This document shows positions 1 through 64,000 of a stretch of DNA of 64,000 bases, piece after piece (the stretch's first letter is position 1; each line of letters starts with the position of its first letter). This stretch comes from Saururus chinensis (lineage: Eukaryota; Streptophyta; Magnoliopsida; Piperales; Saururaceae): assembly GCA_035235625.1 (NCBI GenBank), contig CP141142.1:46417644-46481643 (forward strand). The letters are read 5' to 3'. The translations under genes and the position numbers were made by a program. The notes beneath the pieces are model-generated. The model made no database searches, was not told the DNA's origin, and saw nothing but the letters and a program-made list of their open reading frames with translations.

Positions 1-320
1 TCATCAAACAGTTGGTGTCTTTTAAGTCTTTCTTCCTGTCCAAGTCTATAAAAGGGGGAAAGTCAGTTGTAAGAATCAGTTTTTTAAAATTCGAAATTGA
101 AGATAGCTTGTGTTCTGGGATAAGCTCCAGTCCTTTGCTCATGGAATTGAGTAGCTTTGTGTGTTGTGGATTTAACGCAGATCTGTACTCTGTGGAATCA
201 GGGATAACTCCTGAAGTGGAGTTTTGTAATCCTTTCTTTCTCTCAACTTTTCCATTCAAAGACTTCCAGATTTTGTATCCAGTTTTGTAGTTTTCTGTTC
301 TGTGTTGTATCCTGTGATCC
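1..320 (-). CDS. Possible partial exon, unknown protein (runs off left edge)
   Basis: On the minus strand one frame stays open from a possible splice acceptor (CTAG before position 320) to the window edge, about 106 codons. The translation is hydrophilic and protein-like, with segments such as NYKTGYKIWKSLNG, SKGLELIPEHKLSS and DFPPFIDLDRKKDL. The opposite strand is also open here but reads like antisense (Phe/Ser/Leu-rich). I do not recognise the family. It lies downstream of the VIRILIZER exons on the same strand, yet it does not match the part of VIR expected next, so it could be another gene, an exon carried in by a transposon, or chance. Confidence 0.3.
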
Positions 321-348
321 TAGTTACATCATAATTACATCAAGGAAT

Positions 349-563
349 ACATTGGTTGGAAGTGTGCCATTTCATATACGATATTAATAGAGGATTGGAC
401 ATAAGTCCATTTAACACAAAGTTATATTTGAGCACATGCCAAAGCTGACTCATCTGGGAATTACTCAATCATATCTAAATATACATTGGTAGAAAATGTG
501 TCATGTCATGCAGCGATTATGGGAGGGTTGGACACAAGTCCATTAGTCAAAAAATTATATTTG
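349..563. repeat. Diverged tandem duplication, two copies of about 82 bp
   Basis: Copy one (349-430) and copy two (483-563) share acattggt, a tgtgYcatktcat block, a gaggRttggacaYaagtccat block and a closing ttatatttg. They are separated by about 50 bp and clearly diverged. No coding content was seen. The second copy abuts the LINE fragment that follows. Confidence 0.5.
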
Positions 564-591
564 CTAAGCAATCATATTTAAGTTAAATCTG

Positions 592-1247
592 GGTAATCCG
601 GGCCAGTCTGGCAGTGGCAGTGTGGTGAGAAATAGTGAAGGCAAAATCATGATAGGTTTCTATCAGTATTATGGTTTGTCCTCCAATATGGTTGTTGAAG
701 CTAAGACAATACTGGAAGGTTCGAGATATGCTATCTCATTTCACTTCCTTCCTCTAGTGGTGGAATCCAATTCTCTGCTACCAGTTAGAATGGTGCTTGG
801 TTCTTTTTCTATTTCTTGGCCTTTGAGAACCACAATCAGGGAAATTTCAGATTTGATTAGCTCTCATCCAATTATTGTGCATCATGTTCTCCGTGAAGCT
901 AACGCTGTTGCAGATTTTCTAGCTTCTTATGCCAGTGTCAAGAAACTCTCCAATCTGTTTTAGGCGATTCAGGATGAAGGTGAATTAAATGAAGGGGTCT
1001 AAACAGGAACAAGCAGGGTCAAGCCTCTTAAAGGTCTACCCTCCCATGACAGTTTGGAATAGTGGAGCTTCCGGATAAGATAGTTAAGTGTTTTGTTCTT
1101 ATTTTCATTAGGTCTTTTAGGTTTTTGTGTATCTCGGGGTAAGGTCTTATGTACCCCTCCTTTTCTTGTACCCCAGCTCTTCTTTTGATAAACTGGTAGG
1201 GGTCTGCCTAACCCCTTCAAGGTGGTTTTGATATAACAAAAAAAATA
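592..1247 (+). mobile_element. 5'-truncated LINE: RNase H end plus 3' tail
   Basis: From 592 one frame reads GNPGQSGSG then VVRNSEGKIMIGF and ends at a stop at 961-963. This matches the plant RNase H domain (RVT_3 type) at the C-terminus of LINE ORF2. Late segments VVEAKTILEGSRYA, VVESNSLL and VLREANAVADFLAS correspond to the usual E, D and H/N-A-D motif blocks. After the stop comes a 3' UTR typical of plant L1 elements, with a TTTTGATAAA-like stretch and an A-rich tail near 1228-1247. No reverse transcriptase or endonuclease is present, so this is a dead 5'-truncated copy. It lies in intron 3 of the VIR-like gene, opposite to its transcription. Confidence 0.75.
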
Positions 1248-1663
1248 AGTCTTGTATTTGATGCACAGGATATTCTAAGGCTTTAATTAAATTGAAAACG
1301 AAGGGAAACAAGGAAAAAAATCTTCTAAAAAAAGGCTCACAAGGCACGGAAACAACAAATCAATGAGCTCCACTGTCCTTCCACCTATCTTTAATTACTT
1401 ATTCTGTTAATAATTTAATGGGGTTGTGATCCAAGCATTGACCAAACTAATACTCCACCCAAATCAGTTGGTATAACTGAGACGTTTTATTCATCAACAC
1501 CTCCTTATCCCAAGAAATCTGGATTTATTAGCATCTATGCCTTCATATATTGCTATCAGAGCCTCAGACTAATAAAAGATCCTGATATTTGTAGGAATTT
1601 CGAGATGGATATTGAAAAAAAACATCTACAGGAACAAATGAGATAAATATCCAAACTATTTAT

Positions 1664-1957
1664 TGGATAATTTGGTACTTTGGCATGGTAATCTCTTAAG
1701 GTTTGATATCCATGGTTTGTTCCTAATAGCTTGAGCTTTGGTGGCAACTTGGTTTCTAATATGGTATCAGAGTCAAAAGGTCATGCGTTCAACTATCACC
1801 CTTGCATCTGCATGTTTTGTTCTATCAGTTAAATCATGCTTGCCCATGCAGGGGGAGTACTGAATAATTTGGTAATGTGGCAATGGTACCAGTCTAGGCT
1901 TAATTGTTGAGCCGTTACTTAATAATTCGAGTTTTTAAGGTGACTTGGTTTCTAACA
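1664..1957 (+). mobile_element. TRIM (miniature LTR retroelement)
   Basis: Two direct repeats of about 97 bp flank a short interior: 5' LTR 1664-1761 (TGGATAATTTGG to TTCTAATA) and 3' LTR 1861-1957 (TGAATAATTTGG to TTCTAACA). Directly after the 5' LTR is TGGTATCAGAG at 1762, the standard primer-binding site complementary to initiator tRNA-Met. Just before the 3' LTR is a purine tract, GGGGGAG. The interior is only about 99 bp and non-coding. The two LTRs are visibly diverged, so the insertion is old. Flanking target duplications are not clear. Confidence 0.72.
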
Positions 1958-2756
1958 GTATATATTTTCCTCAAGTGACTTTTTCAACTCACATATAACC
2001 ATGTAAAGGTCCAATCCTCTGTCCAGCGTAGAAATCTATCAGCTACACCAAAGATTTATGTCCCAATATGAGCCTGGTATCAAGTCCCAAATCAAGCATG
2101 CAGGTGCAAGCCTTGTAATCAAGATCAAGAATTAAGATCACCACCATCACCAGATGCCTCTACTCTTCCTCGCAGGGTACTCCAAATGTCAATTGCCATT
2201 GCTGCCAGACAACCCCACTGTCCCTTTCTGGTCTCTCTCACACGTGTTCTCTCTCTATCCCTCTTCATCATCACCCATGCAACATTTCATCACAAACCTA
2301 TCTCTCCTCACCCTCCCTCCCCCAATAACCCAATCTCACCTCCCCTATGCACTTCTCTCCATCTCCCTCCTTTACACTCTACCATCTCTCCAGAAGACTC
2401 TCTCTCTCTCTTTGATCTTTGTATATCATTCTCCTTTCTGGTTAATCGAACATCTATGCACAGATTTAAAAATTCTACATTATGTGGAACCCTTATATGA
2501 GGCTAGTGATTATAAGACCGAATTCTAGTGGTCCTAAACTGATGAAAGACTGAGATGAAGACACTTCTGTTTATCTATGTATATGTACATGTATCCTCTC
2601 ATCTTCAGTTTTTTCTTCTTCCTTCTCAAGTTTGATAAAATTGTAATCCGCCCACAGGCCTCATTACTCAAGCCAATAAAGTTGGTAATTAGAAGAGTTG
2701 CTAACTAGAGGAAGAAAAAAATGATGAAAGTAGTATCAATCAAATAACACATATAC

Positions 2757-4932
2757 CTCAACTTCCAATGCATTAGATGAAGAATGTGAGTACAAGAAAG
2801 GCTGGCAAAGACGCCGAAACTGTGCCTCCCCTTCACACTGAACAAAGATTTCCAAAGCAAATGATGGAGGTGAAGTAGCCCTGAAAAATGTAGCATCCAG
2901 AATAAGGATGCATTATAAACATCCAGATAACATAAAACGTGGGTAATATCAAAAGTGAGTTCATATGCAATTCATGGAGATTCATAACATGTAATTTCAT
3001 GTCCCTGGCAACTAAAACATACAGTTAACAGATAGTTGAAACCCTTTACAATTCCAGTAACCAATCTATAAAACCAACACATTGGCAATTCAAACATTTC
3101 CTCATCAAGTATCATGAATGCCTTCATTGGCATGGTTACATAAATTAATGTCCCATTAGAGGACGGTCGCGATAGATTTTATTACCACAATCACACAAAG
3201 CACAGAGAAAACTGCATTCGTTGGCGGGCACAATTTTTTAGTGCGACAAATTTCTTCTGCTTCAGTTGCTTTCCACTACGGTGCTTGTGACAATTACAAA
3301 ATTTCCCTTCTAAGTATTGTGATTGTGATTTTTTTTTCCGTACTTCTCAACCTGTGCAAAATTTCCCATACGTCATTTCTCTTGAACTTAGGCACCATTG
3401 TGGGCCCATTGCCCATCCATCTTCCTATCCATCCTCCTCAATAACTAGAACTTCTGACCTAGCCATCATCGTCTTCTCCCCCTCCAACCGACTTCCCAAC
3501 CTGTAAACATGTTGCTTGTCTTGTGCATAATCACGTTTTTGTATCCTGTTATCCACACGAAAGAAATTTTTTCTCTGTAACGTCTTTCATGTTTTGCTTA
3601 TAATCATGTGTACCCTTATTTTTTTCCTGTTAATGTGTTCGGTCTTTTGTCTCAAATGATTTTTGTTTTCTTTTGCTTGTGATCATTGATGTCTTTTTTT
3701 TTAATGTTCCCTATACAATCATTCATGTAATGTGTCTCATGCAATTAACTCACTAACGAGCAAAAATTATAGTAAATTTACATTTTTCTCTCTCTTTGCT
3801 TTTATCAATGAAAATTTTCAGTTTTATCAAAAAAGTACAAGAACAAGTAATAATGTGCTTTTATAGATCAGAACGAAGATGGCATAAGTAAGAAACATAT
3901 GATTTTACCATCATCAAAAATTTTGTGTTCATACAACCCAAAAGTACAGAAATTTCCTATTAAGACTACTGCACACATTCAAATTACAACATAATTCAGA
4001 TCAGATAATGAAAATAAAATTTGGACAAGAGAACAATTAATCATCTTGCTTATACTGAGAACATATTCTCTTCAATTATTCTCTCTTCTAATCATAAGTT
4101 AGAATGGGTTATCCTATTCAACTTGACTTGTGAGACCCACAAAGACTTCATGCTGGCACTTTTATGGGCTTAATTTGTCTTGTTCTATTATTTGGCTTTG
4201 CAAAGTGTGCAGTTAGACATTACATTTTCCTCTGCTACTAGTAAAAGTGGCATGGCAAGCAAAAGTCCAAAGAAATAAAAAAGAATGTTAGACTTCAGCT
4301 GAGGTGAATATCTTTTGAAAGTTGATGAGGTAATAAATGGAAATCTTCTTGAGAACAGTACCTACAGAAAAGAAGTAAATTGAAGGTGTCGCAATCCTCA
4401 GGTTGAACGAGAAATTCAACAGAAATAAAACATAAAACAACTTCCAACATAAGATCCAAAATTGGATGGAGAAGCTACTATTAGCATTATTCGTCTTTTC
4501 CGAATGCTATTGTTTAAACATCTTCATTCATCTTTGGCGATTGCCATTGAACCATATTCGGTGTACTAAAGTCAAGATTTCAAATTTTCTAAGATTTCAC
4601 CACCGTCATTCCCATATTGAGTCCTAAGTTGCAGTGCACAACTATCTACCAACACAAGCACAAGTTGAAGCACCATGTAAAGTACCTATGACACAATGAA
4701 GCTTTCAGACAATACTAGGGACATATAGTCTCAAACCAAACTATGATCTACAATGAATGTGTGCCATAATAATATGGCAAATGAAATGTAGGAAGATGCA
4801 TGCCATGTAACAATTGGGATGTAATTATAGTGTAACTAGAATATAAAACTTGTTACATGGTGTACTTACATGTTATTATACAGTAATTTATATAGTATGT
4901 AGGCACTTGCATACATTTTAGTTTTGTTACTT

Positions 4933-4963
<31 letters not shown>

Positions 4964-5541
4964 GTGAAAAAAGTTTATATGAGCCCGGGCTCATAAACCC
5001 ATGAGTATTATGGGCCACCGGATGTAAATCCGACAGCCCATAGAGCCCAGGCTCACGTAGGCGAATATGAGCCCAGGCTCATATGAACGGGACTCTATAT
5101 GGAAAAAGTTTATATGAGCCCGGGCTCATATTCGCCTTCGTGAGCCCGGGCTCATATTCGCCTACGTGAGCCCGGGCTCTATGGGCCGTCGGATTTACAT
5201 CCGGCGGCCCATAATACTCATGGGTTTAAAACCCATGAGTATTATGGGCCGTAAACCCAACAGCCCATAGAGCCCGGGCTCACGTAGGCGAATATAAGCC
5301 CGGGCTCATATTCGCCTACGTGAGCCCGGGCACATATTCGCCTTCGTGAGCCCGGGCTCTATGGGCCGTCGGATTTACATCCGGCGGCCCATAATACTCA
5401 TGGGTTTAAAAACCCACGAGTATTATGGGCCGTAAATCCAACAGCCCATAGAGCCCAGGCTCACGTAGGCGAATATAAGCCCGGGCTCATATAAACGGGA
5501 CTCTATACATATATATATATCTATATATATATATATATAGA

Positions 5542-5574
<33 letters not shown>

Positions 5575-7914
5575 TCGCCTACGTGAGCCCGGGCTCATAT
5601 TCGCCTACGTGAGCCCGGGCTCATATTCGCCTTCGTGAGCCCAGGCTCATATTCGCCTTCGTGAGCCCGGGCTCATATTCGCCTTCGTGAGCCCGGGCTC
5701 ATATTCGCCTTCGTAATCCGACGGCCCATAGAGCCCGGGCTCACGTAGGCGAATATGAGCCCGGGCTCATATAAACGGGACTCTATATATATATATATAT
5801 GTATGTATGTATATATATATATGTATGTATGTATTTGCATGTATATGTGTGTATTTGCATGTATGTATGTATGTTTGTTTGTATGTATGTATTTATAATC
5901 ACATACCTTCCGGAATGTGGTAAAAAGTCGAAAATTCACTAATTAAGGGAAATGAGAATTTATTTTTCATGAAAAAAAAAGTCACACATGACTAACGCAG
6001 GACAAAAAGGAAGTCTTGAATCTTCGTTCAATGGAGAGGGATAATTTTCCCTTGGGGAAATTTTGTTCTACACAAGAAACCACAGCAAATCCTCAAAATT
6101 TATAGGGAGTTGGGGATTTTTCCCCCCTCAAAGTGGGGAAATAAAATCCCCTGCAAATAGCCTACCTGTAAATTCAAACTGACAACATATCATTGTCCCT
6201 TTCACTCGAACAACAAAATGATATAGTGCTTTCTCATCGTCATCTACGCCGTAGCCTAGCCATCAGAAGCCAGCAACATGGATTCCATATAACCATTTGA
6301 CTCGTTACGATCACAATGATAATACATAATCCAGATGAAAATATAGAAGCAAGATTATTATACCACGTGCCCTTCTTGATGCAATCCTCCAAGGAGGAAA
6401 TAATAATTAGATAACATCATCGTTGTCATGATATGCCTTTTCCCTATTATCTGGTATTGGCTTCATAAATGATAGTTGCAAGGGAAACATTGATATGGTC
6501 TATCTTCCATCAAAAAGCTGGTAACACCAAACTGATTTTGCATGGAAGCATGACACAGTTATAGTTCTTCATTTGCACCAAACAAATCATCCACAAAGTT
6601 TTTTTTATAAAATATTCACTTCCAAAAATAGGCCCATCTTAATTGAATGCATATGATTATTTTCAATAAAAGCCTCTCAATGGAAGAAGTAATCATGAGG
6701 ATGACTGAAGCTAAGATCTTCAAGTAACATCAGATGATACGGCACAGCACACCTGAGCATAACAATGTTTATTTCCAGAAAAGGGCCATTTCTTTCAAAC
6801 AAAGTTAACTTTTTCCTAACAAATTTAATTTTGCGTACCCATGAAGAATTTTCCAGTGTAAACTATCCAACTAGACACGAAGCCATCCAGTCCCATGAAG
6901 AGCTAGTTAGATAGTCTACAAATTACAATATCTGCCCCAAACTTATTGAACAATCTAAAAAAACCACACAAATCCATAAAACAATAGGAAATGTATCATA
7001 CCCAACAACTGTTACTAGAGAGGAAGCTGAGGATGCATTCTGTTCGAGGAACTCACAAGCAGTGATAACAACGGGTTCAGAAAAAATAATCTGCAGATAA
7101 AAAGCAAGATAGAGAAAAATAAAGAATCATCAATAAAAAAAATGTAGGCAGAGAAAAACAGGAATGCACACAACAGCACAACAAAATGAAAGAAAGAAAA
7201 GAATGATCCAAGAAAAGGAGTGCGCAACAAATGCAAATTAACAGAAATTTAACTCTGAATATGCACTTAATATCAAACTTTAAAAGCTAATAAATCATTA
7301 AAATAGATATTTGAATAGTATAAACCCAGTTTCATTTTGGGTTCCTGAATGTGAACCCACAAAACAGGAATGTGAATAAGAGCCCATACTTTCTCAAACT
7401 CTGCAACCATTGAACCTGGAAACAGCTTATATTATAAGAAAGACATGTTAGTAACATACACAGCTTACTACATCAAAACACTCATACACACACACATCTT
7501 ACTTCCTAATTCTCTTATCTTCAAAGCCGACATACTGAACTAATTAATGGTTGCTTATGAACCAAACAAATTATAAAATGGTTATAACTCACCACATATA
7601 AAACTGGACGAAACAGAACTGCATTTTTCAACAAAAGATTGCGCTTACAAAGCTACGAAGTACACAAGACAGGAACCATAACTTCATTCATTCAAAAAAT
7701 CAACTACATATCACCCAGGGAGTACAACCCACGACCAATACACACAACACTCCAAAGCGACAACAACGCTCCCCGCTCTAACAACTCCTCCGTCCGTCCC
7801 TTAAAAGTGTCCCATTTAGATGAGAGGGGAAGAGCTTACCTCGTCGACGTACTCGTCGAGGTGGGGGTGAACAAAGGACTGGGCGAACAAAACGCAAGGC
7901 TCCGGCCGCCCCAT
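2757..7914 (-). CDS. VIR: VIRILIZER (m6A methyltransferase complex subunit), first three exons
   Basis: Exon 1 is 7914-7840 (starts MGRPEPCVLFAQSF, ends DEYVDE, donor GTAAGC). Exon 2 is 7090-7002 (IIFSEPVVITACEFLEQ onward, acceptor CTGCAG, donor GTATGA). Exon 3 is 2880-2757 (ATSPPSFALEIFVQCEGE, then FRRLCQPFLYSHSSS and ALEVE; acceptor TTTTTCAG, donor GTATAT). Phases fit (0, then 2/1, then 0). Together they encode 96 residues that match the N-terminus of plant VIRILIZER, the large scaffold of the nuclear N6-adenosine mRNA methyltransferase complex (with MTA, MTB, FIP37, HAKAI). The full protein is about 2,000 residues. The next expected segment, beginning AVVTNHLVV in homologues, was not found between 1 and 2756, so either intron 3 extends past the left edge or the copy is truncated. 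Confidence 0.85.
3480..3835 (+). mobile_element. Possible LINE 3' end in VIR intron 2
   Basis: The stretch ends with TTTTATCAATGAAAA, CAGTTTTATC and an A-run at about 3828-3833, which is the usual look of plant L1-type 3' UTRs. Upstream is T-rich sequence without a recognisable coding domain, so the left boundary is a guess. It lies in intron 2 of the VIR-like gene in antisense orientation. Confidence 0.3.
4963..5793. repeat. Palindromic GAGCCCGGGCTC element cluster inside (TA)n
   Basis: Three adjoining copies (about 4963-5099, 5100-5510, 5570-5793) are built from alternating inverted half-units. The parts are GTTTATATGAGCCCGGGCTC ends, TATTCGCCTACGTGAGCCCG blocks, and GGGCCGTCGGATTTACATCC / ACTCATGGGTTTAAAACCC centres. 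Exact or near-exact palindrome centres lie near 5229 and 5408. One side reads AAAAAGTTTATATGAGCC, the other TATATAAACGGGACTCTATA, giving imperfect inverted ends. Every gap is (TA)n or (TATG)n microsatellite (4932-4963, 5504-5570, 5788-5890). No ORF is present. It resembles MITEs that insert into TA microsatellites (as described for Micron in rice), but I do not recognise this family. It lies in intron 2 of VIR. Confidence 0.75.
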
Positions 7915-8594: not shown

Positions 8595-8650
8595 TTTCTA
8601 ATAGGGTGAAGTTCAAAACGGTGGAGACTAAGAAATTAAAATATTTTTTT

Positions 8651-11043
8651 AGAAAAAATTATATAAATAATAATAAAAAATAATTACTAAAATAGTGTTT
8701 ATTTTGATCACATAGATAGCAGCAAAGCGCGGGCACCTATACGGCATTTTTTCAATTTTTTTCAAATATCATCCTTTAGAAGGATAAAATCATTTTTAAG
8801 TTGATTTCGTCGACGAAATCACCTAACTTGACATTTTTTTGGTGGGGTTTAAGTCCTATTGTGTAAATTTAAAGGTTAATTTCGTTTCTGCAAATGACAA
8901 AATCACTTAACTTTGCCCTTTTCAGCTCAAATTATAAGTTCACACTAACTTTGTTATTGTCAATGACGAAATCTAGTTAAAGAAATTTTAAGATTAAGTA
9001 GGTAGGAAACATGCTAATATCCACACAATCAACATATAAATCACATGAATATTCACACATCAAGTGATTAGAAAATCTATAAAATATATAAATTAAATAT
9101 AATATTCTCAAAATGTTGAGTTTACAAAACAAGTATATAACAACTCTAAGTCGTTCTCCCTCTCCTACCCCTACGACCTCGACCCCGACAGTATTGTACT
9201 GGCTCCTCCTGGTCTACATAAGTAACAGATGGCTCACCCCAAACACACCTATGAAGATAATGGGATAGGATCACACGAGCTGCCCAAAATGGTCGCCAGG
9301 CTAGGTCAATTAGATTCAATTGCAGGTCAACTCAGGTTGACCTAGTTTTCCTATCTATTAGATTAAATATAAAGTTATGTTTAACATTCACACAAAACCT
9401 TTGTAACTCAGTTGATAGAATCGGAAACATCAATTATCTAACGGTCTGGGTTCGAATCTCGCCTCTGAACATATTTTTTGAGGAGCATTATAAAGTACAT
9501 AACATACATTAAATAAAATAGTTGCATAAAATGTATGTAATAAAATTGTTGTAGCCTAGTGGGTTACGTAGGGTCGGTGTTCTGAGAGCGCGAGTTCGAA
9601 TCTTGCTAAAAACCTTTTTTTTTCACTAGAACGTTAAACCAATTTGATCCTGGTAAGTGGGTCACTGGTTCAACTAGCTGGGTCGTGTTGAACCGATTGG
9701 GTCAACATAAACTGTTAAACTAGAAGAACCAACCCGGTTTATCAACCAAGTCCAGCTGAACCGGTCCGACTGACTGGGTCGATCCTGGTTTTAAAACACT
9801 TTAAAGGAGGAGAACCAAGTGTTGCAAATGAAGATGGAATCCATGGAGCATGCCCCAACGGTGTGTAAGCTACCTCGTCAATGGGATAATGTCCAAGAAC
9901 ATCTGCAATAACCGACTGAAGTAGTGGCAAGCTACAAAGGACAGCCTCATGGTGCACGTTGATCGACTCACATAATGCTAATAAGACCTCACCTAAAGTA
10001 TCAAGTGTTAACTGCGTCAATCATCGCGTGGTAGAATGTATATTTGTGTAATGGGCAAATACCATTGCATATACGGGCTATGAACATCACGTGATGTTGT
10101 AGCCATCTCGCCTCGGACAATAGTGGCTCTCCTATTATCCCATCGAGTGATATATGTTGCATGATGTGCAGCCCAATCAGTAATATGGCGGCCTTGTCGA
10201 GTGATCCGTGGATAAACTCTACTATACAAGGAGGGATATCTTACTCAAAGTTAAATTGGAGCATCACACGATCAGACATGTGCAACTCTACAATCACAAA
10301 ACATATAAACGACATTCGAGATAGCCACATCTCTTCCCTCTATACAAAGACGAGGTAACTCAACCAACACCTCAGGCAAGTATGGCTGCCAAATGACTTG
10401 CACAATTTATAAGTATAATTAGTTTTTAATAACCTTACATTGCTTATATTCATTATATTAAATGTGATAATGAAATGTAATTACCTAATAAGGGCGTTGG
10501 TGGTCTAATCTTCTCTATACAAACATAGGACTCCTTGTGAATTTTTGTTTTTTCTCCTCCCAACATCCCACCTTAAGGAGTAAAATTTAACACATAAATT
10601 AAACAAATCCACATTAAGCTATGTTTAAAATATAAGTATAAAAAATATATACCTAGCTCCTAATGGAGCACCCTCTACTACGTGCCCCATACAATAGTTA
10701 GTCGGCCGACATGTAAATGCTTCCACGACCATAGCTATGTCACAAAATATCAACATAAACTCAGCCCACTTTAGCCAAAAAACACAAAGTTAGGTGATTG
10801 TGTCCTTCACAATGATGAAATCGCCCTAAAGAGCATTTATTCCTTGTGAAGAATGAAATCAGAACGAAATCAACTTACACTTAATTTTGTCATTCGGAAT
10901 GACGAAATCTATTTTTAAAAAAAAAAAAGTCACGCAAGCGTCAATGCTACGTGGCCAAAATAAACACCATTTTAGGAATTATTTTCGCCACTTTGCTATT
11001 TTGGTAATTATTATTTTTTAATATTATTTATATAATTTTCCCT
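8651..11043 (-). mobile_element. Non-autonomous PMD-MULE derivative
   Basis: The ends are inverted copies: AGAAAAAATTATATAAATAA at the left against a right end whose complement reads AGGGAAAATTATATAAATAA, continuing with TAATTACYAAAATAG. Inside each end are TTTCGTC/GACGAAA palindromes. The interior, read on the minus strand, holds only the C-terminal half of the PMD gene: the exon with VGRPT near 10700, the ESINVHHEAVLCSLPLLQSV segment at 9742-10020, and an RGRG-rich tail near 9160. The transposase and the PMD N-terminus are missing, so this is an internally deleted derivative of the type at 59.9-64 kb. No target duplication could be matched. Confidence 0.7.
9275..9805 (+). mobile_element. 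Insert with two tRNA-like modules (SINE-like)
   Basis: This segment interrupts the PMD 3' region of the surrounding element. It holds two Pol III promoter-like modules. The first (9401-9470) has an A-box-like TAACTCAGTTGATAGA and a B box GGTTCGAATCTC. The second (9549-9612) has TAGCCTAGTGGG and GAGTTCGAATCTTG, followed by a T-run at about 9614-9622. The rest is rich in GGTCAAC/GAACCGGT motifs and closes with TGGTTTTAAAACACTTT. Neither module folds as a convincing intact tRNA. It could be a dimeric SINE, or a MITE carrying SINE copies; exact borders are uncertain. Confidence 0.5.
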
Positions 11044-11419
11044 AGAAGGGTGACAAAATTTTCATTGCATGCTTATTTTTTATTTATTTTAGAGATTTTT
11101 TATATTACCTAGTCTAAGATGTAAAAATTTTACATTCCCTGATTTTATAAAAAATAATTCATAAAATCAAGACACGAAATTTTTAAAAATGGAATTAAAA
11201 TACACCTACAACAAGGGTTAAAATTATGTAAACCCGTCAGTAATGGCATATAAGCTAAGACGTGGTTGGAGCTAAGTGGCGATTTATAGTTTCTAATCGG
11301 CGATTCCCATTTGCAGCAAATTTTGATTTTCATTCCGTGATTGTTGACCTCTATCACTTCATCAGTTATCCCGCTTCTCCAATTTTTGATCGAAAATTTT
11401 TATTAAGAAACCATCTACT

Positions 11420-14165
11420 TATGATGAACTTGATATGCAAGTAGTTAGCAGAGTTGGGTGGGATCGAAGGAGATGGAAAATTACTATAAAAATATTATAT
11501 TCCGATATTTGGATGGAGATTAGGACTAATATGTGTAGATGATGATGCATCAATAAGACAAATGTTTCACCATTCATCTCACATATTTTGTTTTGAGTTA
11601 TTTCTCAATAAAGAGGCCCGAGTTTCTAGGGAAGGGCGGAGTGCTAGTAGGTGTTCACACAGGAGCTCGAAAAGAAATGTGAGCAGTGGAAGAATATGCA
11701 AATGCCAGTGGATGATGATGAAGAATAAAATTTATTGATGACAGTACCTTCAAATGAACTCCATAGGTTGTTTGCACCTATTGACAATGGAAGTAGACCT
11801 AATTGAAGGTAAGGTTTATTAAGTTGTGAATCCTGTATGAATCTTATAATTGTCGATGAAAATTAAGATGTTGAATTATGAATTTTATGTGTAATGTGGA
11901 AGGTACACATCACAAGCACACGAGACATTTAGCCTTTAAATGCCTCAAGGTGGTGCGTGGTATGGAACTTAAAGCTCAATGGGCATTCATTACCCCTACA
12001 CAGGTGTTGGACCATCCAATCCAAGGTAAAATATATATTCATAAACGAATCTAACATTTTTAGGTTTTAAAGAAGTGTTTTAAGTAATATGAAATAGAAT
12101 ACATGTGTGATATTTATGTGTAGGGGAGCCTATGTCCATGATGATGACATTGATGTAAATGAGGCCAATGAAGGTGAAGATAGTACTAGTGAATCAAGTG
12201 AAGAAGAGTATGACATGAATGAAGAAGGTGTTAGAGGTGAAAAGGTGCTCAAGAGGTGGTTGACGGCGAGGGGGATGATGCATTAGACAATGCAATTTTT
12301 GTAAATAACATGAATGTGGATGATGAAGAACCGCCATACTATGACAGGAGGAGCCAATCTATGCACATATCATAAATGAGGAGATAGATGTTGCAGTTAA
12401 TTATGTCATGGATATGGAGCAACAAAACGAAGAAGAGAATTATATGTTGAGCGCATCTTTGAGGATAAAGAGACATTTGTCATAGCCTTGAGGGAGGTTT
12501 CAATTAAGAATCATATCCAATACAAGGTTCTACGCACAAATATGTTAGAGTATACAATGAAGTGCATTGATAGTACTTGCCCTTGGAGAGTTCATAGATC
12601 AATGAATAAGGGTGTATGGTACTTTAAATTAAAGACATATGGAGGTGACCACACTTGTAGGAATGCCCAGCTTAGCATTGATCATATGTAGTGTAGTGCA
12701 TCATTTGTTTCCAAGGTCATAATGCCCGCCATCTAAGCCGAATAACTCTCACACCAGGTGATATTATTCAAAGAATGAATGAGAGGTTCCACATTGACAT
12801 TTCTTATAAGAAAGCATGGGTGGTAAGAAATATGGTCATAAAAGCAATTTATGGGGATTGGGTTGAATCATACAAATTGTTTTCAATGTACCTCAGGGCA
12901 GTGCAAGATGCGAATCCCTGTACCTACTACAACTTGGAGTCTGATAAAGTAACTATTGAAGATGGTGGCCCATACAAGAGATTTAAGCATATGTTTTGGG
13001 CATTTGGTCTGTCTATAGTGGGGTTTCGGCATTGCATCTTAGTGATTGGTGTCGATACCACTCACTTATACGACAAGTATCTTATGGCTGCAACTGCTAT
13101 AGACAGGAACAATGGGTTATTTCCTCTAGCATTCGAGATAGTAGCAAAGGAAGATTATGTTAATTGGAAATGGTTCTTAAGTCAATTGAGGGATAATGTA
13201 CTGATATGATGAATGTCACAATCATTTCATATCGACATAAGGGGCTTCAGAAGGCCGTGCCTGAGATTCTTCCCTCGCCATTCTTCTACCATCATTACTG
13301 CATCTATCACATAAAGGCAAATTTTAAGAAGTAGTTCAAAAATGATACACTAACGAACTTGATTGGGACAATGGCCAATGTACTGATAGTAAAATAGTTA
13401 ATGCTAAAATGGACTTCATTGGTTAGGAAAGTCCCAGGGCAAAATAGCTCCTCTTAGGAGAAGGATTGCATCTTGAAAAATGGTCTCTTGCTCACGATGG
13501 TTTTAGAAGATTTAGCATGACGACTACAAATATGGTGAAAAGTTTAAATATCGTCTTGAAGGGGGCACGAGGATTACCCATGTAGACTTTAGTGTCAGCT
13601 ATTTTTTATCGGGTAGTAAAATTCTTCATTAAACGATCTTGTGCTTCGGATGCCATGGCCACCCCGTATACTCCCATAGTGGAAGGGATAATTAGAGAAC
13701 AAACAAGTAAATTTGGGGAGTATATAATTAAGAGGATCAACCGCAATGAGTACGAAGTGATGTCCATGCATGGCAGAAGGGTTGTGGTGAATGCGGTTCA
13801 TCATACTTGTACATGTAATTTCCCTTAAGTCTATTTGTATCCTTGCTCACACCTTCTTGCCATGTAGGGAAAGTGGCGAGAGCCTATACATGCAGGACTT
13901 TATTACACATCGACTGCTTATAGAAATGTGTACTCCGCATAAGTCTACTATCCTCGTGGTCAGGAGTTTTGGGAAAGAGATATGCCTTATGTGTTATTAC
14001 CTCCAAAAGCAACAACACAACCTGGTCGCCCACGATCTGTCCACATTTAGAATATAATGGACCGTGTGACCATGGAGAGAAATGGTAGAGCAGGGTATAA
14101 AGGTGGGAGGTGCAAACAATCTGGGCATAATAGTAAAAGATGTAGAAACCCTCCTATTGATTGGT
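11420..14165 (+). pseudogene. MuDR/mudrA-type MULE transposase, decayed
   Basis: Domains appear in the family order. An N-terminal region lies near 11450-12300, with long acidic Asp/Glu stretches. The MuDR DNA-binding domain is at 12488-12691 (IQYKVLRTN, CPWRVHRSMNKGVWYFK, GDHTCRN). The MULE catalytic core is at 12775-13209 (VIGVDTTHLYDKY holds the first Asp), continuing at 13210-13400 (RHKGLQKAVPEILPS, YHIKANFKK). A SWIM zinc finger lies at 13592-13828 (ending CTCNFP) and a CCHC-like knuckle near 14108 (CKQSGHNSKRC). Several stop codons and frame changes separate these blocks, and the second catalytic position reads SYR rather than the usual SDR, so it cannot be active as it stands. Confidence 0.75.
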
Positions 14166-14249: not shown

Positions 14250-17200
14250 GATCATATGGAGCCTTTTTACGGGCCAAGCCCCATTGATGAGACAGTACTT
14301 GTCTAGCAGGAGTTGCATAGGTTGGCTTCTATTTGGCTAGGAGAGGTATTCTAACTGTTCATGAATGTTATTTAGTTTTTTAGACTATTGTTACGTTGGG
14401 TTATAACATTTTAATTTATTATAGGACCCCAAGTGCCTTGAGTGCACCAAACATTTTAGATATCTCCGACAATGGCACGTAGATGAGCGTATTCTACCTT
14501 ATATCAAGCGAGCAGGATTTGGACATTTTATTCATATACAGTACTTTCGTCTCGATAGGCCTTTACTGACAGCTCTTGTCAAGAGATGGAGGAGGAAGAC
14601 TGTCACACCCCTGGGTTTTTCAAACCATTTTCCACAATTTTCATGAAATTTTGCAATATAACGACTGTAATTTCTGAAAATTGTCGAAAATTGAAACATG
14701 TGAAGATATTTTATATTTCTCACATCATCAATTTAAAACTACACAACTTGAATTTTTCTCTTAAATCGTCGAAACACATTAGCTAATCACCCCGAGCGTG
14801 AGATCAAACAAATACATGTAAAATCACAAGTGCCATGGCCATGGGCTTAAATACACATCTCCTAGGCATAGCCGAGTACAAGTCCGATAATAGTCCAAAT
14901 GTAAACAGTCCAAAATAATACATGCATAAGCTCTCAACTCGCCCAATACATGTATAGTCCAAAATTACATCAGATCGTGGTATAACTAAACAAATGAAAT
15001 TAAACAGTCAACAATTGACCTGAAGTCTGTCCTCTCCTCCATAACTAAGTCCCGCCTACGAAGCTCTCGTGCTTGGACCCGCAGAAGTCACTGGAGGATC
15101 TAATATTCAGTAGAAGGAAAATGAGTATTTTCATACTCAGTAGAAAATACCCAGTAGGGGATTTCTAAACAATGAACTTGTAAGTCTAAACGTAGCTGCA
15201 TTCATGAAACATAACATGATACAACAAAACATGAACAATCAAAGTCTCTCAATATATGATGCTAATAACCATACATATAACACGAACTCATGTTCGTCCC
15301 ATCTTACCACACAATCCTACACATATACATACACTTACTGTCTTACTCATATTGTCTTACTCAAACTCTTACACTTACAGTCCTGCTCTTACAGTCTTAC
15401 TAAACACATACACTTACGATCGACAACTAGGGCTCATTATCAAGCTAATCAACTCCAACGTCGACAAAAAGGAATGCCACTTGGGCGTCACCTTAACCTC
15501 TGGAGAGTGCTAGACGCCATTGACTTTTCCAAAGGTAAGGCACACCTATGCTTATGGGGCACAAGATCAAATAGGTAAGAGTAGTTCCATGATACTACTT
15601 ACCTGAGCGTGCAAACATAAACGCCCACACATTAGAGCCATATAATCGCCCACACTTTAGGGGTCTTATAGTGCCAGTGCCACTCTTGGGCAGAATTCAT
15701 ATAGTGCTCTCAATAGAGCATCAAACGTCTAAGATTAAATATAGCACACAGACAAACTCCCGCAGGATACACATCATGGCTAGACATGAGAAATGCTTTG
15801 CAGATTAATCACCAGCTAGTTCAACCACGGAACTTAATCCGTCTAACTACTAAAGTCTCAAACTCACAAGGTTAACATTTTAGTTTTACTTAACATTCCA
15901 GTTTGAATTAAATACTTTATGCTCATGTAATTTTCCTTTGAAATCGTACTATCATAAAGTCTCCTAGTAAACTCAAAACTATGTCTGTTTGCAAGCTTTC
16001 CGCTCATTGCATCAAAGCCTTATTCAATCCAAACTAATTTCAGCCCATCAAACATACACATATCAATGCTATTGATATAAACATCCACCATTGTGCACGT
16101 CAATCCACACACATTTAACCAAACACTACTTACAAATATAGCACATCCAACATATGCATAAACCATTGCATCAGCATGCAGATAATTTATCTTACTAGCA
16201 TGCAAATAATTACACTCTAAACATATACAATCCATCATTTGTCGAGCTAATAACATGTCATATAATTAGCATTTGCATAAGCTGATGTCATACCATTATA
16301 CACGATATCCATAGCATTACGTATTATGAAGCATGTAATTAAATTGGCCCTAGCATGCATTCTAACATACCAAGCACATTGTGATAGAATTACAAGTTCA
16401 AAGCTCCCTACCTTGTTTTTTTGGAGTGTATGACTATTGTCGGGGTGCACAACTATGGCTGCGTCAATGGCAAATTCAGCGAACCCAAGCGTCGCTTTCT
16501 ATAAAATGAGTTGCACATGGTTACAAAAGTGTCGTAGGCTTGTAGGGGTTTCTGCGATGAATGGTTCGGTCCGATTCAACGCCCGTCGATCTCCATGCCT
16601 CCCGTCGACACGTACAAGAGGCTGTGGGGGTGGACATTGCACCCAAAAGGGCTGATATGCAAACCCAAATTTAGTGCAGTGTCTAGCTCCACCGTTAGTC
16701 ACCAGGCATTGTGGCGAATCGTCGGAAGCCAAAACCGTCCTGGTTAGAGGTCGACAATCGTGGTTTTGGAGGCCAAACCCCACATATAAGAGCTAGAGGG
16801 GTGTGGGTTAAGGTAGAGAGGTGAGGAGGAGGATAAATAAGGCGACAGTGGCCAGCCACGGCCGCCGGCAAAATAGGAACCGACAAATGGGGGATGGCTG
16901 GAGATGAGAAAGGAGGGCGCTGGGAGGAAGCCTCTGACTGGAGGAAGGGTGGAGAGGTGGTGGCCGGCCGAAAATGGTGCACAACGGTCACCAAACGGTG
17001 CTCCTACGCTCCAAATGGCCAAAACGGTGAAAAATGGGCCAAAATCCGGTAGTGCGAGGAGGAACAAAGAGGAGACGGCGATAGTTCTAGTCGGTACCAC
17101 CAGACTCATGGCAGCCGGGTGAAGCTAGATCTAGCAAGAAACGGCTGATTCCAACAACGGAGGAGGCGTGACGAACGGTTTGGAAAAGCCCTCGGTTTTC

Positions 17201-34696: not shown

Positions 34697-36675
34697 TGAT
34701 TATAAGAAAATAATTTTTGTAATGAGACCTAGCATGGTACATAGAGGCTATAGCCATATATCTACCCCTTAAATAGCTGTGCACTGCGTTCGTACCATGG
34801 CAAAATCTCATTTACCAAGGTCACGGACTAGTTATGGAGCCCCTTCTAGACACAGATGTGTCGTTTTACAGTTTAAAACTTCATTTTTATTATCAAACAC
34901 ACCGAGTCAAGTACATTTTTTTAGTTTTGTGAGTCAAATTTCATATGGAATCAAAATTAAAATACTCCAAAATGATTCCATGACTTTTCGAGCCACACAC
35001 CAAAAACTCATAAGGAGGCTAATGACTCCATTTTCCTAACAATAATTTTTAAATAAAATTAATAATATGAGACGAAGTTAATTTTTTCAAAATAAACTAT
35101 TAATATAAGATTAGTGAGTATTGGTTAAATATTTTACTTGTTAAAAAGATCGCAATGTCATAAACAAATTTTATTTGTTTATAACACTTAAAAAATGAAT
35201 GTATTTTCTTATTTTACTAAAAGCTACTATTTTGTCTATTATTTAAAATTTTAATACTCTATCTATCTTAAATTAATAAAAAGTTATTTTATGTTATTAA
35301 TTTTATTTTATTCAACTTAAGTGGTTAAAAACTTAAAAAAGAGTAGCATAATTCATAAGTTTATTTTCCCTTCAAGTGTGGGTTTTATCATAAAATAAAA
35401 ATTACTCCATCAAACTTATGTTAATAATTATATTTTAAAAAATAATTAATAAATACGCATGAACTCTATGCTTAATTAAAACGTAAAAAGCTCTTAATTC
35501 TTAAAAGATACTAAGACGGGGGAGGCACACACGGCGTGGAGCCCACGACTAGAGGAGATTCCGCGGGAATCACGCCGTTTTTTTTCTTCTTTTTTTTGTG
35601 CAAAATCGGGCCGGTGGATGACATCACCGACGCGCCCGCGTAAAATATGCAATAAGCATAATGTTTGTCTTCGCAGGATCTGATTTGTTCCCCAGAAAAT
35701 ATTATCAGTTTTGAGCCGTCGATTAATGGAACATGGTCTGTTAATAATAGAACCACGTTATTGCTGGAACAAAAACTGCTCGTGGCAATATTAGTAAGGC
35801 CGGCAGAAGTCAATAGACTCTTGGCGTGGCCAATATACGCATGACAAACTTATTCAGTTTTTCATCAATGTCCCCAGTTTCAAAATTATTTAGAATTACT
35901 TCTCCTATGTTTCTCATATACGAGAAACTACCTTCATATTTTGTAATATTACAAAAAATTTAAAGGTTGGAACCCCTCAGGCCTCACCGAATCGCCTTTT
36001 TAATTACACATTTATTATTTAGTTTTTGACAGCCATATCAATTTATATCATATTAGTTTTAGTTAACAAACACGGTCCTAAAGAACAAAAGTCAAGATTT
36101 TGAATTTTTAACCTCTTGGCCATTTACAGGGATTATATTATGAGGTTAAAAATAGTAATTTTTATTAAACGGTAAAATACTGATACTCTCAATAAAAAGG
36201 AAATTAAATTTACCATATTAAATACTAAACTATTTAAATTAAATAAAATAAAGTTACTAAATATTATAAAATATTTTTTTATATAAAATAGAACTATTAG
36301 TTTAAAACGGCATTATAATGGGATTAACGGTGGGACATGGTGTTTTATTTTTATTTAATTATGTGACGGGAGGGAGCAGAGGCAAGATAAGACTAAAATA
36401 AAGGAGCTCGTTGAATAACAATCCTAAAACATGAGGGTCTTCAAGTGTTAAATCCAATGAAAATCTTTCTAGAAATTTAACTTCATCTTCCTCCTCCTCA
36501 GACCGCACTCCCATTCGGCGCCTTCGTCTCGGCTGTGGAGGCGCAGCTCACCGCGTTATCCTGCTCCTGCCCCCCGCTAGAGAATTGCTTGATTGCGTCC
36601 AGATCCGTAATCAGGCCTGATTAGGAGTCAGGGGGCGCCCGCGGCGGCGGCAGCTCCTGTAATCGGAACCCGATT
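34697..36675. other. Upstream region of XXT5-like gene, with MITE relic
   Basis: AT-rich to about 36420, then a CT-rich, increasingly GC-rich stretch that is probably the 5' UTR of the XXT5-like gene. A decayed Stowaway-like element is recognisable at about 35253-35410 (tactctatctatcttaaattaat .. gagtagcataattcataag). No clear TATA box was seen near 36400. Confidence 0.4.
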
Positions 36676-38055
36676 ATGGGCCAAGAGGGCTTTGCCCTTA
36701 AGCGACCCACCGCAGCCTCGCTCCCCACCGCCGCCCGGCCCGGCGGGCGGAGCAGCGGCGGCGTACTGCCCCGAGGTCGACAGATCCAGAAGACGTTTAA
36801 TAATCTCAAGATCACCGTCCTCTGCGGCTTCGTCACTATCCTCGTCCTCCGCGGCACCATCGGTGTCGGCAACCTCTCCACCGGCTCCGACCCCGCCGCC
36901 GACGAGCAGCGAGTCATCGAGGAGACCAACCGCATCCTTGCCGAGATCCGCTCCGACGATGGCGACGACGACGAAGACCTCAATTTCTCCTCCTTTGGCG
37001 GCAATGCTACCGCCGCCAACGCCACTGCCTACCGGCTCGGGTCGAAGATCATGGACTGGGACCAGCAGCGGAGGAAATGGCTGCAGGAGAACCCTCAGTT
37101 CCCCAACGTCGTTGCGGGGGGCAGGCCGCGGATCCTCCTCCTGACGGGCTCACCGCCCAGCCCCTGCGACAACCCGATCGGCGACCACTACTTGCTCAAG
37201 GCGATTAAGAACAAGATCGACTATTGCCGCCTACACGGCATCGAGATCGTGTACAACATTGCGCACCTGGACAAGGAGCTGGCCGGGTACTGGGCAAAGC
37301 TGCCCATGATCCGCCGCCTCATGCTTTCCCACCCGGAGGTGGAGTGGATCTGGTGGATGGACAGCGACGCCCTCTTCACCGACATGGTCTTCGAGCTCCC
37401 CCTCCACAAGTACGACGACTACAACTTCGTCATCCACGGCTACCCGGACCTGCTCTTCGACAAGCACTCCTGGATCGCCCTCAACACCGGCAGCTTCCTC
37501 TTCCGCAACTGCCAGTGGTCGCTTGACCTCCTTGACGCCTGGGCACCCATGGGACCCAAGGGCCCGATCCGCGACGAGGCCGGCCGTGTCCTTACCGCCT
37601 TCCTCCAGGGCCGCCCGTCATTTGAGGCTGATGACCAGTCGGCCCTGATCTACCTGCTGATAACGAAGAAGGATGAGTGGATGGACAAGGTTTACGTCGA
37701 GAACTCGTACTATTTGCACGGCTACTGGGCGGGGCTGGTGGACCGGTATGAGGAGATGCTGGAGAAGTACCACCCGGGCCTCGGCGACGAGAGGTGGCCG
37801 TTCGTGACCCATTTTGTTGGGTGCAAGCCCTGTGGATCGTACGGGGACTATCCGGTGCAGAGGTGCCTGAAGAGCATGGAGAGGGCGTTCAACTTTGCCG
37901 ACAATCAGGTGCTTCAGATTTATGGGTTTAAGCACCGGGGGCTGCTCACCCCCAAGATTAAGAGGATCAGGAATGAGACGGCCACGCCGTTGGAGACCGA
38001 GGACCCGCTCAAGCTAAGGCATCCGACGTTCGGGGACCGGTCTCAAAACCGATAA
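36676..38055 (+). CDS. XXT5: Xyloglucan 6-xylosyltransferase, XXT5 type (GT34)
   Basis: A single-exon 459-residue type II Golgi membrane protein. It transfers xylose from UDP-xylose to the glucan backbone of xyloglucan. Short cytosolic N-terminus with LPRGRQIQKTFNN just before the membrane segment (about 45-64, ITVLCGFVTILVLRGTIGVG), then a stem with an acidic run (94-101). The GT34 catalytic domain starts near 150: ILLLTGSP (153-160), NPIGDHYLLK, HGIEIVYN, then WWMDSDALF with the DxD motif at 229-231, GYPDLLF, LNTGSFL and FVTHFVGCKPCGSY (376-389). Close agreement with Arabidopsis XXT5 over nearly the whole length, including EETNRILAEIRSD and the C-terminal PKIKRIRNET, supports XXT5 over XXT1/2. 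Start and stop fit the family length; nothing is broken. Lack of introns and high GC are notable beside the AT-rich surroundings. Confidence 0.95.
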   Translation: MGQEGFALKRPTAASLPTAARPGGRSSGGVLPRGRQIQKTFNNLKITVLCGFVTILVLRGTIGVGNLSTGSDPAADEQRVIEETNRILAEIRSDDGDDDEDLNFSSFGGNATAANATAYRLGSKIMDWDQQRRKWLQENPQFPNVVAGGRPRILLLTGSPPSPCDNPIGDHYLLKAIKNKIDYCRLHGIEIVYNIAHLDKELAGYWAKLPMIRRLMLSHPEVEWIWWMDSDALFTDMVFELPLHKYDDYNFVIHGYPDLLFDKHSWIALNTGSFLFRNCQWSLDLLDAWAPMGPKGPIRDEAGRVLTAFLQGRPSFEADDQSALIYLLITKKDEWMDKVYVENSYYLHGYWAGLVDRYEEMLEKYHPGLGDERWPFVTHFVGCKPCGSYGDYPVQRCLKSMERAFNFADNQVLQIYGFKHRGLLTPKIKRIRNETATPLETEDPLKLRHPTFGDRSQNR

Positions 38056-59844: not shown

Positions 59845-60027
59845 ACCATTTCTCACATATTTTGGTCCACAATATTTAATTGGGAAAATTATTAAAATAA
59901 TAATTAAAAAAATATTTACCGAAATATACCACTTTGGGAAATATTTCCTAAAGTGGTGTTCATTTTTGCCATGCAGGCGCCAGCCAAGTAGCTGGCGCCA
60001 GCGTGGTTTTTTTTTTTTTTTTTTAAG

Positions 60028-60205
60028 TTGATTTCGTCGTTTAGAATGACGAAATTGATTTTAATACGATTTCATCGTTCTAAACGACGAAACCGTTTAT
60101 TAAGTTGATTTCGTCGTTCTCAACGACGAAACTGCCATACTTGGATGATTTCGGCGTTCGGTCTTGGAACAACACTGATTTCGTCGTTTAGAACGACGAA
60201 ATCAA
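60028..60205. repeat. Subterminal TTTCGTCG/CGACGAAA palindrome array
   Basis: At least four inverted pairs are present: GATTTCGTCGTTTAGAATGA followed by CGAAAT, then GATTTCATCGTTC..AACGACGAAA, GATTTCGTCGTTC..AACGACGAAA and GATTTCGTCGTTTAGAACGA followed by CGAAATC. Each could form a short hairpin or serve as a paired protein-binding site. Compare the arrays at 8.80, 19.85, 26.40 and 27.07 kb. Confidence 0.7.
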
Positions 60206-62691: not shown

Positions 62692-64000
62692 TGTCACGCC
62701 CCGGCACCGCCCGACCCGAGCCGAACCCGGTCCAAGGGCCGGTCAAGCGCACGGGGGCGACAAGAGAAATTGAAATACGGTTTAGCGGAAGACTTAACCC
62801 TAATTACGGGCGATTTAACACAATTACGGAGTACGCACACCACTTTGAGCAAGAGTAAATAAGTAGAAAAGAAAGAGAGTTGCTTAACTCAAAATAAACA
62901 ACTAGTCTCAAACCCACATGCTTAGTTTAACCATAGCCCACTCTAGGCTCCAAAATAGGTCTTAAACAACACAAGTGTATAACATAGCATGAATCAAAAT
63001 GAGAACTATACACAAAGGTTCTAAACATAAAACATAAATCAAGGAAAATAAGTCTCATAAGTGGACTCCACGATCACATCTACGTCGTCTCTGGTCTTTC
63101 CTCGAAGAGGAGATCCTGTCTGTCTGCGTGTCGCACCACGCAGCCCCAAAACAAAACATAATAAAGAGGGGTGAGTTTAAACAAACTCAGCAATGGTTTT
63201 TAATATACTATCATCATCGGAAACACGACGGTCTATCAACATAACTAGTCAAAGCAAAGATTGACAAGATGTATCATTCCCTGATCACACAATTATAACA
63301 TATAAACATGCATATAGTGTCTAACTCACACTTTCTGATCATGCATTCATAACTCATAATCCTGCATATAGTAACTCAATCACGCTTTCTGATCATGCAT
63401 TCATAACCCATAATCCTGCATATAATATTTCAATCACATTTTCTGATCATGCATTCATAACACATAATCCTGCATATAATATCGCATCCATTCTTGCACG
63501 ACAAACGTGTCAAATCACATGATACACAATCATGCATAGCATACATCCCATACATGCATCAACATAAAACAAGAATGCCTCCATCAAGGAGTAAACACAA
63601 TTTGTGTCACACAGACAAGGCCACGAAGGCGTGTCATGGTCCAAATTCTACACAATAATTTAGTGTCACGGAGACGGGGACACAGACAAGGCCACGAAGG
63701 CGTGTCGTGGTCTAAATTCTACACAAGAATTTAAGAAGGTCGGGGTTGTCAATCCCTAAAGCTGCTCGCCCTGGACGATCCTGGCCAAGGAAGTCCTATT
63801 CTCACGAAGAGAATCTAGAGCAGGGGTGTTCGCCCTGGGACATCTCCTGCGGTAGGGGAGAGACCGAATTCCCACATAGGGAACCCTAGAACACGTGGTA
63901 GCTGGTGCACGGAGCGTACCACTCTGGATTCTTAGGGTCCAGAGACAATCATAATAATCTCAATCCGCAAGACAAGTACATAACTCGTCCCCATATATCT
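62692..64000 (-). mobile_element. Long LTR (Ty3/gypsy, Tat-like), runs off right edge
   Basis: It begins TGTCACGCCCCGG after ACTCG (62687-62691). Read in reverse complement it matches the 3' part of the LTR at 20016-26376, including the GCTCGGCTC..GGGGCGTGACA end and the TCTAGGTTTCC array. Tandem repeats inside are three 55-60 bp units with TTTCTGATCATGCATTCATA (63329-63482) and two units with GACAAGGCCACGAAGGCGTG (63623-63732). Whether it is a solo LTR or one end of a full element cannot be seen. Fossil. Confidence 0.65.

Follow-up and report, generated by a model that had tools for sequence, protein, structure and literature searches.

A GC-rich array of foldback units in the TA microsatellites of a VIRILIZER-like intron, probably derived from a microsatellite-targeting MITE

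A 64,000-nucleotide stretch of Saururus chinensis contig CP141142.1, here called the window, contains an array of four rearranged foldback units set among TA microsatellites in an intron of a VIRILIZER-like gene. We propose that the array probably derives from a non-autonomous foldback MITE that targets TA microsatellites and is probably Mutator-like, and that local recombination then reshaped it. Most likely, the element represents a new family of the known kind of TA-targeted MULE MITEs, which it resembles in their described architecture. It could already be listed as a repeat family of its host.

The array was recognised by its palindromes. With up to two mismatches allowed, the whole 64-kb window contains 19 GAGCCCGGGCTC-like matches (12 exact, seven with one mismatch), all of which lie inside the array at 4981-5768, so that 818 bp hold all 19. 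In 100 shuffles, the whole window gave a mean of 0.68 and at most 3 matches. This bears out the palindromic element in TA microsatellites that an earlier note, made from the sequence alone, had described. Likewise, of the 21 perfect palindromes in the window with at least 12 bp and a GC content of at least 0.4, 12 start within 4966-5783; without the GC filter the numbers are 35 of 107, with many TA tracts among them. The GC-rich blocks also stand out from their AT-rich surroundings as claimed, with a GC content of 0.53 and 0.59 in two measured stretches of the array versus 0.36 and 0.39 around it. The CpG observed/expected ratio is 1.16 in 4965-5786 (linker included), compared with 0.31 in 1-4960 and 0.71 in 5800-64000. 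Outside the array, the ratio of the left part is thus less than half that of the right.

All six perfect TA tracts of at least five units in the 64 kb are found at 4940-5822. Tracts of at least four units are less exclusive (6 of 14 at 4900-5850), as are those of at least three (8 of 85). Module tokenisation showed that (TA)n cuts the palindrome cluster into three TA-delimited blocks, A, B and C, which share one set of modules. The interval first given for the element, 4963-5793, is thereby adjusted: the modules occupy 4966-5783, and the TA tracts lie at 4933-4963, 5504-5574 (the TRF extent around the B-C linker) and 5784-5822. The features are as follows.

4933-4963, no strand: left flanking TA microsatellite (TRF period 2, 15.5 copies)
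4966-5095, plus strand: block A (module tokenisation), with left end, one palindrome, an internal deletion into the centre, and a complete right arm and right end
5096-5100, no strand: A-B spacer TATAT, 5 bp
5101-5503, plus strand: block B (module tokenisation), a head-to-tail dimer of the foldback unit that shares one outer palindrome at 5296-5307
5112-5131, no strand: 20-bp perfect palindrome ATATGAGCCCGGGCTCATAT, left outer end of block B; identical 20-mer at 5753-5772
5180-5242, no strand: hairpin module TATGGGCC..GGCCCATA and central dyad ATACTCATGGGTTT-A-AAACCCATGAGTAT (module tokenisation, DNA folding)
5504-5570, no strand: B-C linker, 67 bp, TA microsatellite with C and G interruptions
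5571-5783, plus strand: block C, with left end lost, 26-bp palindrome-and-spacer repeat expanded, centre deleted and right end complete
5784-5822, no strand: right flanking TA microsatellite with TATG interruptions

The module alphabet consists of the left end L, the palindrome P, a 14-bp spacer S (complement s), a 34-bp hairpin module H, the dyad C-A-c and the right end R. L is GGAAAAAGTTTATAT or GAAAAAAGTTTATAT, S is ATATTCGCCTACGT or its ..TTCGT variant, and R is ATATAAACGGGACTC. In block A the order is L P c H P s P R. The order in block B is L P S P S P H C c H P s P S P S P H C c H P s P R, and block C starts with S P S P S P S P S P S, continues with the end of H and closes with P s P R. 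The modules tile the blocks with few leftovers, namely 'AT' at 4993-4994 and, at the hinges, the bases 5228 and 5408-5409. The H modules of two right arms (5243-5269 and 5424-5450) are 7 bp short, and a partial H lies at 5715-5730. Inverted-repeat search and tokenisation both confirm that inverted half-units alternate. Among the perfect palindrome centres previously named, GGGTTTAAAACCC is not perfect: it has 13 nt, its reverse complement is GGGTTTTAAACCC, and it is where the arms of a long inverted repeat meet at a one-base hinge. Eight of the 45 TGGGCC/GGCCCA occurrences in the window, which we take to be TCP-type sites, lie inside the array, where the hairpin module alone accounts for them.

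Three copies had been counted, and three TA-delimited blocks are indeed present. However, they hold four units, because block B is a dimer fused through one shared palindrome. Its outer, shared and outer P start at 5116, 5296 and 5477, a spacing of 180 and 181 bp, and TRF reports 5112-5492 with period 180, 2.1 copies and 96% matches. All four units are rearranged and none in the array is intact. In block A, a deletion from the first P into the centre has removed most of the left arm. Block C has lost its left end and centre and contains six spacers and five palindromes, compared with two spacers per left arm in B (TRF 5571-5714, period 26, 5.5 copies, 97%). The units are non-nested, as none interrupts another, and all four have the same orientation. 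The earlier statement that each copy is bounded by (TA)n is borne out at the outer flanks and at the 67-bp B-C linker, which are TA tracts; the A-B spacer is only TATAT, and the left end of block C is truncated into the TA tract, which it enters at a common ATAT.

The right end AACGGGACTC is followed by TATA in all three blocks, while the left end AAAAAGTTTATATGAG is common to two of the three. We took the element ends as AACGGGACTC/TA on the right, which can also be given as CTCATATAAACGGGACTC plus TA, and GAAAAAGTTTATATGAG. The foldback arms are inverted repeats of 88 nt with 95% complementarity. Their outermost 7 nt match poorly: GGAAAAA stands against GAGTCCC from the opposite strand, an odd feature in a terminal inverted repeat. 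If the left end is taken to start at GAAAAA, the ends read GA..TC. By arithmetic on the modules, which is not a reconstruction of the ancestor, a complete unit would measure about 222-229 bp. It would consist of a left end, repeats of palindrome plus 14-bp spacer, a hairpin module, a one-base hinge and a mirror-image arm with the right end. The 20-bp palindrome also occurs in one-mismatch forms at 4977-4996, 5065-5084, 5292-5311 and 5473-5492. ATATGAGCCCGGGCTCATAT is its own reverse complement and therefore has a direct orientation at both ends of a unit. Palindromic ends that are both direct and inverted repeats are a mildly new trait compared with the known kind.

The array lies in the second intron of the host gene, on the minus strand, as defined by translations with gt/ag borders.

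7914-7840, minus strand: coding part of exon 1, followed by gt
7090-7002, minus strand: exon 2, between ag and gt
7001-2881, minus strand: host intron, 4.1 kb, second intron of the VIRILIZER-like gene
2880-2757, minus strand: exon 3

The translation of the joined exons starts with MGRPEPCVLFAQSFVHPHLDEYVDE.., which in our judgement resembles plant VIRILIZER. The joined exons match Pfam VIR_N at 17.6 bits (E 0.0027), below the cut-off of 27.7. Submitted one at a time, the three exon frames matched nothing in Pfam, and no solved structure matched the joined start. In 1-3000, no further exon besides exon 3 was recognised. The placement in a VIR intron that had been assumed is thus backed by the gt/ag borders and the VIR-like start, but not by a domain match above cut-off; judged by its sequence, the host gene is likely VIRILIZER.

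The array has several traits that have been described across TA-targeted non-autonomous MULE MITEs, though not all in each of them. The comparison drew on excerpts of three papers, covering MuTAnT of Medicago (PMC4486113), SaTar of guayule, rice, sorghum and citrus (PMC5907723) and Ac-mMITE of pineapple (PMC8449440). Taken together, these families, which range in size from about 200 bp to 1.9 kb, have TA flanks and foldback arms, form non-nested arrays and include defective copies and fusions. The array matches them in its TA flanks, its non-nested units, its foldback arms and, if the left end starts at GAAAAA, its GA..TC ends. The resemblance to microsatellite-targeting MITEs seen earlier is the best-supported reading. 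It rests on a foldback unit whose recurring ends lie at the only perfect TA tracts of at least five units in 64 kb, and on the adjacent, non-nested arrangement published for such elements (PMC5907723, PMC8449440).

According to the excerpted text, SaTar elements (including rice Micron, which is rSaTar2) are also short, have inverted ends, lie mostly in (TA)n and form modular non-nested arrays, and some are fused by deletion of the linking satellite. They differ in being described as dispersed families of ~230-1900 bp that often form mixed-family arrays; the comparison is by description only. The excerpts contain no mention of internal palindrome modules in SaTar (all PMC5907723). MuTAnT of Medicago truncatula is a 292-bp foldback type with long arms built of modules, TA flanks and a share of defective copies of about a quarter; by its legend, a dot plot displays four similar segments. 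Its TIR mask GGGGTTTGCTAGAACA is unlike the array ends by eye, and 9-nt duplications are shown for it (PMC4486113). In the array, no target-site duplication can be read, because the copies sit inside TA repeats. Foldback/FARE-type MULEs of Arabidopsis share the long palindromic arms, as described in PMC4486113 and not by sequence. Ac-mMITE-1 and -2, again compared by description only, have (TA)n flanks, mostly GA and TC as first and last bases, and sizes of 210-270 and 510-570 bp. Clusters formed by adjacent insertion comprise 46.1% of their full-length copies, and 18% of the microsatellite-targeting group lie in introns. The 53,014 elements reported correspond by arithmetic to ~9 per 64 kb, and four units in a single window are too little to exclude such a density (all PMC8449440).

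How the array grew can be envisaged in three steps. First, a transposase supplied in trans would insert a unit into a TA tract, and the tract may also expand; the guayule paper, citing maize work, states that the TA repeats next to an inserted element can grow afterwards (PMC5907723). Second, more adjacent insertion, or exchange between TA tracts, would give several head-to-tail units. Third, recombination or single-strand annealing of neighbours would remove 'right end-(TA)n-left end', resulting in a dimer with one common palindrome. Here, the anatomy is visible in block B, and the mechanism is the presumed part. Slippage of the 26-bp unit would produce the expanded block C. Since each arm ends in the 20-bp palindrome, the two ends repeat each other both directly and in inverted form, and neighbouring units could recombine; one exchange or annealing between them would leave exactly the anatomy of block B. 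The earlier proposal of growth by fold-back or by insertion into the element's own flank survives in part. Adjacent, not nested, insertion can explain the arrangement of A, B and C, but recombination between palindromic modules, or slippage between them, accounts better for the B dimer and the 26-bp expansion. A mixed model with some insertion and some recombination is most likely. The guayule paper doubts plain cut-and-paste and offers a speculative model of circular intermediates with recombination (PMC5907723).

Comparison of the copies bears on the balance between these processes. Over the last 69 bp of the right arms (54 for B1), to which the comparison is confined, four differences separate each of the pairs A-B2, A-C and B2-C, and B1 differs from B2 at 2 of 54 and from A and C at 5 and 4, respectively. 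The units are thus separate copies. An AAGCCC variant and a deletion of 7 bp in the right arm occur in both halves of B, so B1 and B2 are close kin. The spacer variants run T,A in the first half and A,T in the second, and B is therefore not a fresh exact duplication. Across 671 module positions we counted 18 substitutions, 11 of them transitions, including six from CpG to TpG/CpA; this count omits the H modules 5243-5269 and 5424-5450 and the partial 5715-5730, and counts the TACGT/TTCGT variant six times. Together with the CpG ratio, the CpG transitions suggest that the array DNA may be fairly young and partly methylated.

A single insertion followed by purely local tandem amplification, through unequal exchange via TA tracts and palindromes, is a serious contender, though we rate its chances at somewhat below even. 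It is compatible with a mobile family and differs in how the array arose. The common orientation of the four units (chance 1/8 if random) favours local amplification, as do the deletion and AAGCCC variant shared by B1 and B2. Two G-to-A changes common to A and B2 and absent from C (one is also in B1) point to local kinship, although CpG sites can change in parallel. Left flank and B-C linker both carry TATACATATA towards the left and TATATGT towards the right, which is suggestive only. On the other hand, the right arms of A, B2 and C are equally distant, A has neither the B-specific 7-bp deletion nor AAGCCC, and C lacks AAGCCC and has its 7-bp site deleted. Moreover, the excerpted pineapple study reports clusters of TA-targeted MITEs as independent insertions (PMC8449440).

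Alternatively, the array may never have been mobile, but be a local foldback or minisatellite that arose from unique sequence by hairpin-primed replication slippage, with the TA repeats stemming from the same instability. The tandem 26-bp and 180-bp repeats and the unlike outermost ends would fit this scenario. So would the lack of another copy in the 64 kb, where the best match to the array is a 17-bp stretch (E 0.55), and in non-plant collections, where none would be expected. GAGCCCGGGCTCATATTCGCC and two further 20-mers had no match in viral contigs, and a distant search of a plasmid collection gave none; these collections are not of plants, and such a miss says little. Among genome contigs, GAGCCCGGGCTCATATTCGCC matched one, from an Acidobacteriia MAG (L001), which we take as chance and not as a relative, because all 20 BLAST rows listed fall on one 21-bp site. 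As a text string, GAGCCCGGGCTC was not found in the literature, and among the matches listed for six shorter strings none was about plant repeats, judged by listing. One known locus and no second copy in the window also count against the MITE reading, in which mobility is what we infer. Nevertheless, discrete left and right ends recur abutting TA, the foldback unit has MITE size, and its architecture is like that published for TA-targeted MITEs, which makes a non-mobile origin unlikely.

The element could also be a MITE of another superfamily, e.g. Tc1/mariner, whose TA duplication would likewise be invisible in a TA tract. TA lies outside the right end in three of three blocks, and no test of the array fixes the superfamily. 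However, the array end is unlike the Stowaway terminus, CTCCCTCC. In the view suggested by the MuTAnT paper, several unrelated families of DNA transposons came to target TA (PMC4486113), but in the excerpted papers those with an assigned superfamily count as MULEs in the case of MuTAnT and of guayule and rice SaTar, and as likely Mutator-derived in pineapple, and we regard this alternative as rather improbable. An assembly artefact in which palindromes and TA repeats were wrongly joined, although such DNA is generally hard to assemble, is very improbable, as the units carry private substitutions and the block borders fall at consistent element ends.

MuDR-type transposase pieces lie in the window at 12401-13206 (DBD_Tnp_Mut with E 1.2e-09, and a MULE domain with E 1.9e-05 whose 25.5 bits fall short of the 27.6 cut-off). 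As the autonomous partner, this neighbouring MULE gained no support: no ends shared with the array were found, including among the 25 of 40 inverted-repeat pairs listed. The ends of the array element are found nowhere else in the window, and none near these pieces, which leaves the MULE a candidate partner at most.

The window contains further repeats and genes. At 8647-11047, nested inverted repeats of 28-45 nt (75-87% complementary, ~1.9-2.3 kb apart; 25 of 40 pairs listed) enclose minus-strand frames at 9745-10244, one of which resembles frame 60527-60946 by eye; the whole is probably a long-ended DNA transposon of ~2.4 kb. A 39-bp tandem repeat at 60020-60132, TTTTTAAGTTGATTTCGTC.., has its start in common with inverted-repeat arms near 8.8 kb (8793-8811), which suggests related element ends. 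Another tandem repeat, of 54 bp and 3.8 copies, lies at 63281-63483. A plant mobile domain (PMD, E 1.4e-48) is encoded at 61821-62543, and frame 14425-14643, which has no Pfam match, looks like the start of that frame by eye. The RNase H-like fragment at 568-960 (RVT_3, E 1e-14) is probably a retroelement remnant. A GC-rich open frame at 36625-38052 belongs to the GT34 family (Glyco_transf_34, E 1.5e-62) and is presumably a xyloglucan xylosyltransferase.

The very stable hairpins expected in the VIR pre-mRNA hold as a prediction. The VIR-sense strand folds at -633.3 kcal/mol, compared with -293.7 (sd 5.5) in 20 shuffles (z -62), with uninterrupted helices of 64, 58 and 39 pairs; folded as DNA, four sub-blocks gave z of -6.7 to -12.7. 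It is thus strongly predicted that the array folds into long hairpins in the pre-mRNA, and small RNA from them is a possibility. Rfam returned 50 matches up to E=1 at 4700-6100, none reaching its gathering score (top row MIR810, 70.2 of 170). We therefore rejected a known microRNA precursor or gene and attribute the sub-threshold matches to generic hairpin likeness. The array is probably without host function, a coding role being judged from reading-frame lists only.

Arrays of TA-targeted MITEs are already known, but without a settled mode of formation. The present one is predicted to be a source of long intronic hairpins; should the element occur in this intron alone, it would be a local curiosity. 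More tentatively, as a reading less likely than not, we suggest a MITE family with self-complementary arm modules, in which neighbours in TA tracts fuse into end-sharing multimers by ordinary recombination. At its boldest, this reading has the palindromic ends themselves as the drivers of fusion; block B fits it exactly, as a single case. With its point of fusion traceable to a single 20-bp palindrome, the array offers a simple and testable recombination step. If true, the bold reading would lead from a mobile element to a palindromic satellite, with no transposase required once the first insertion has taken place.
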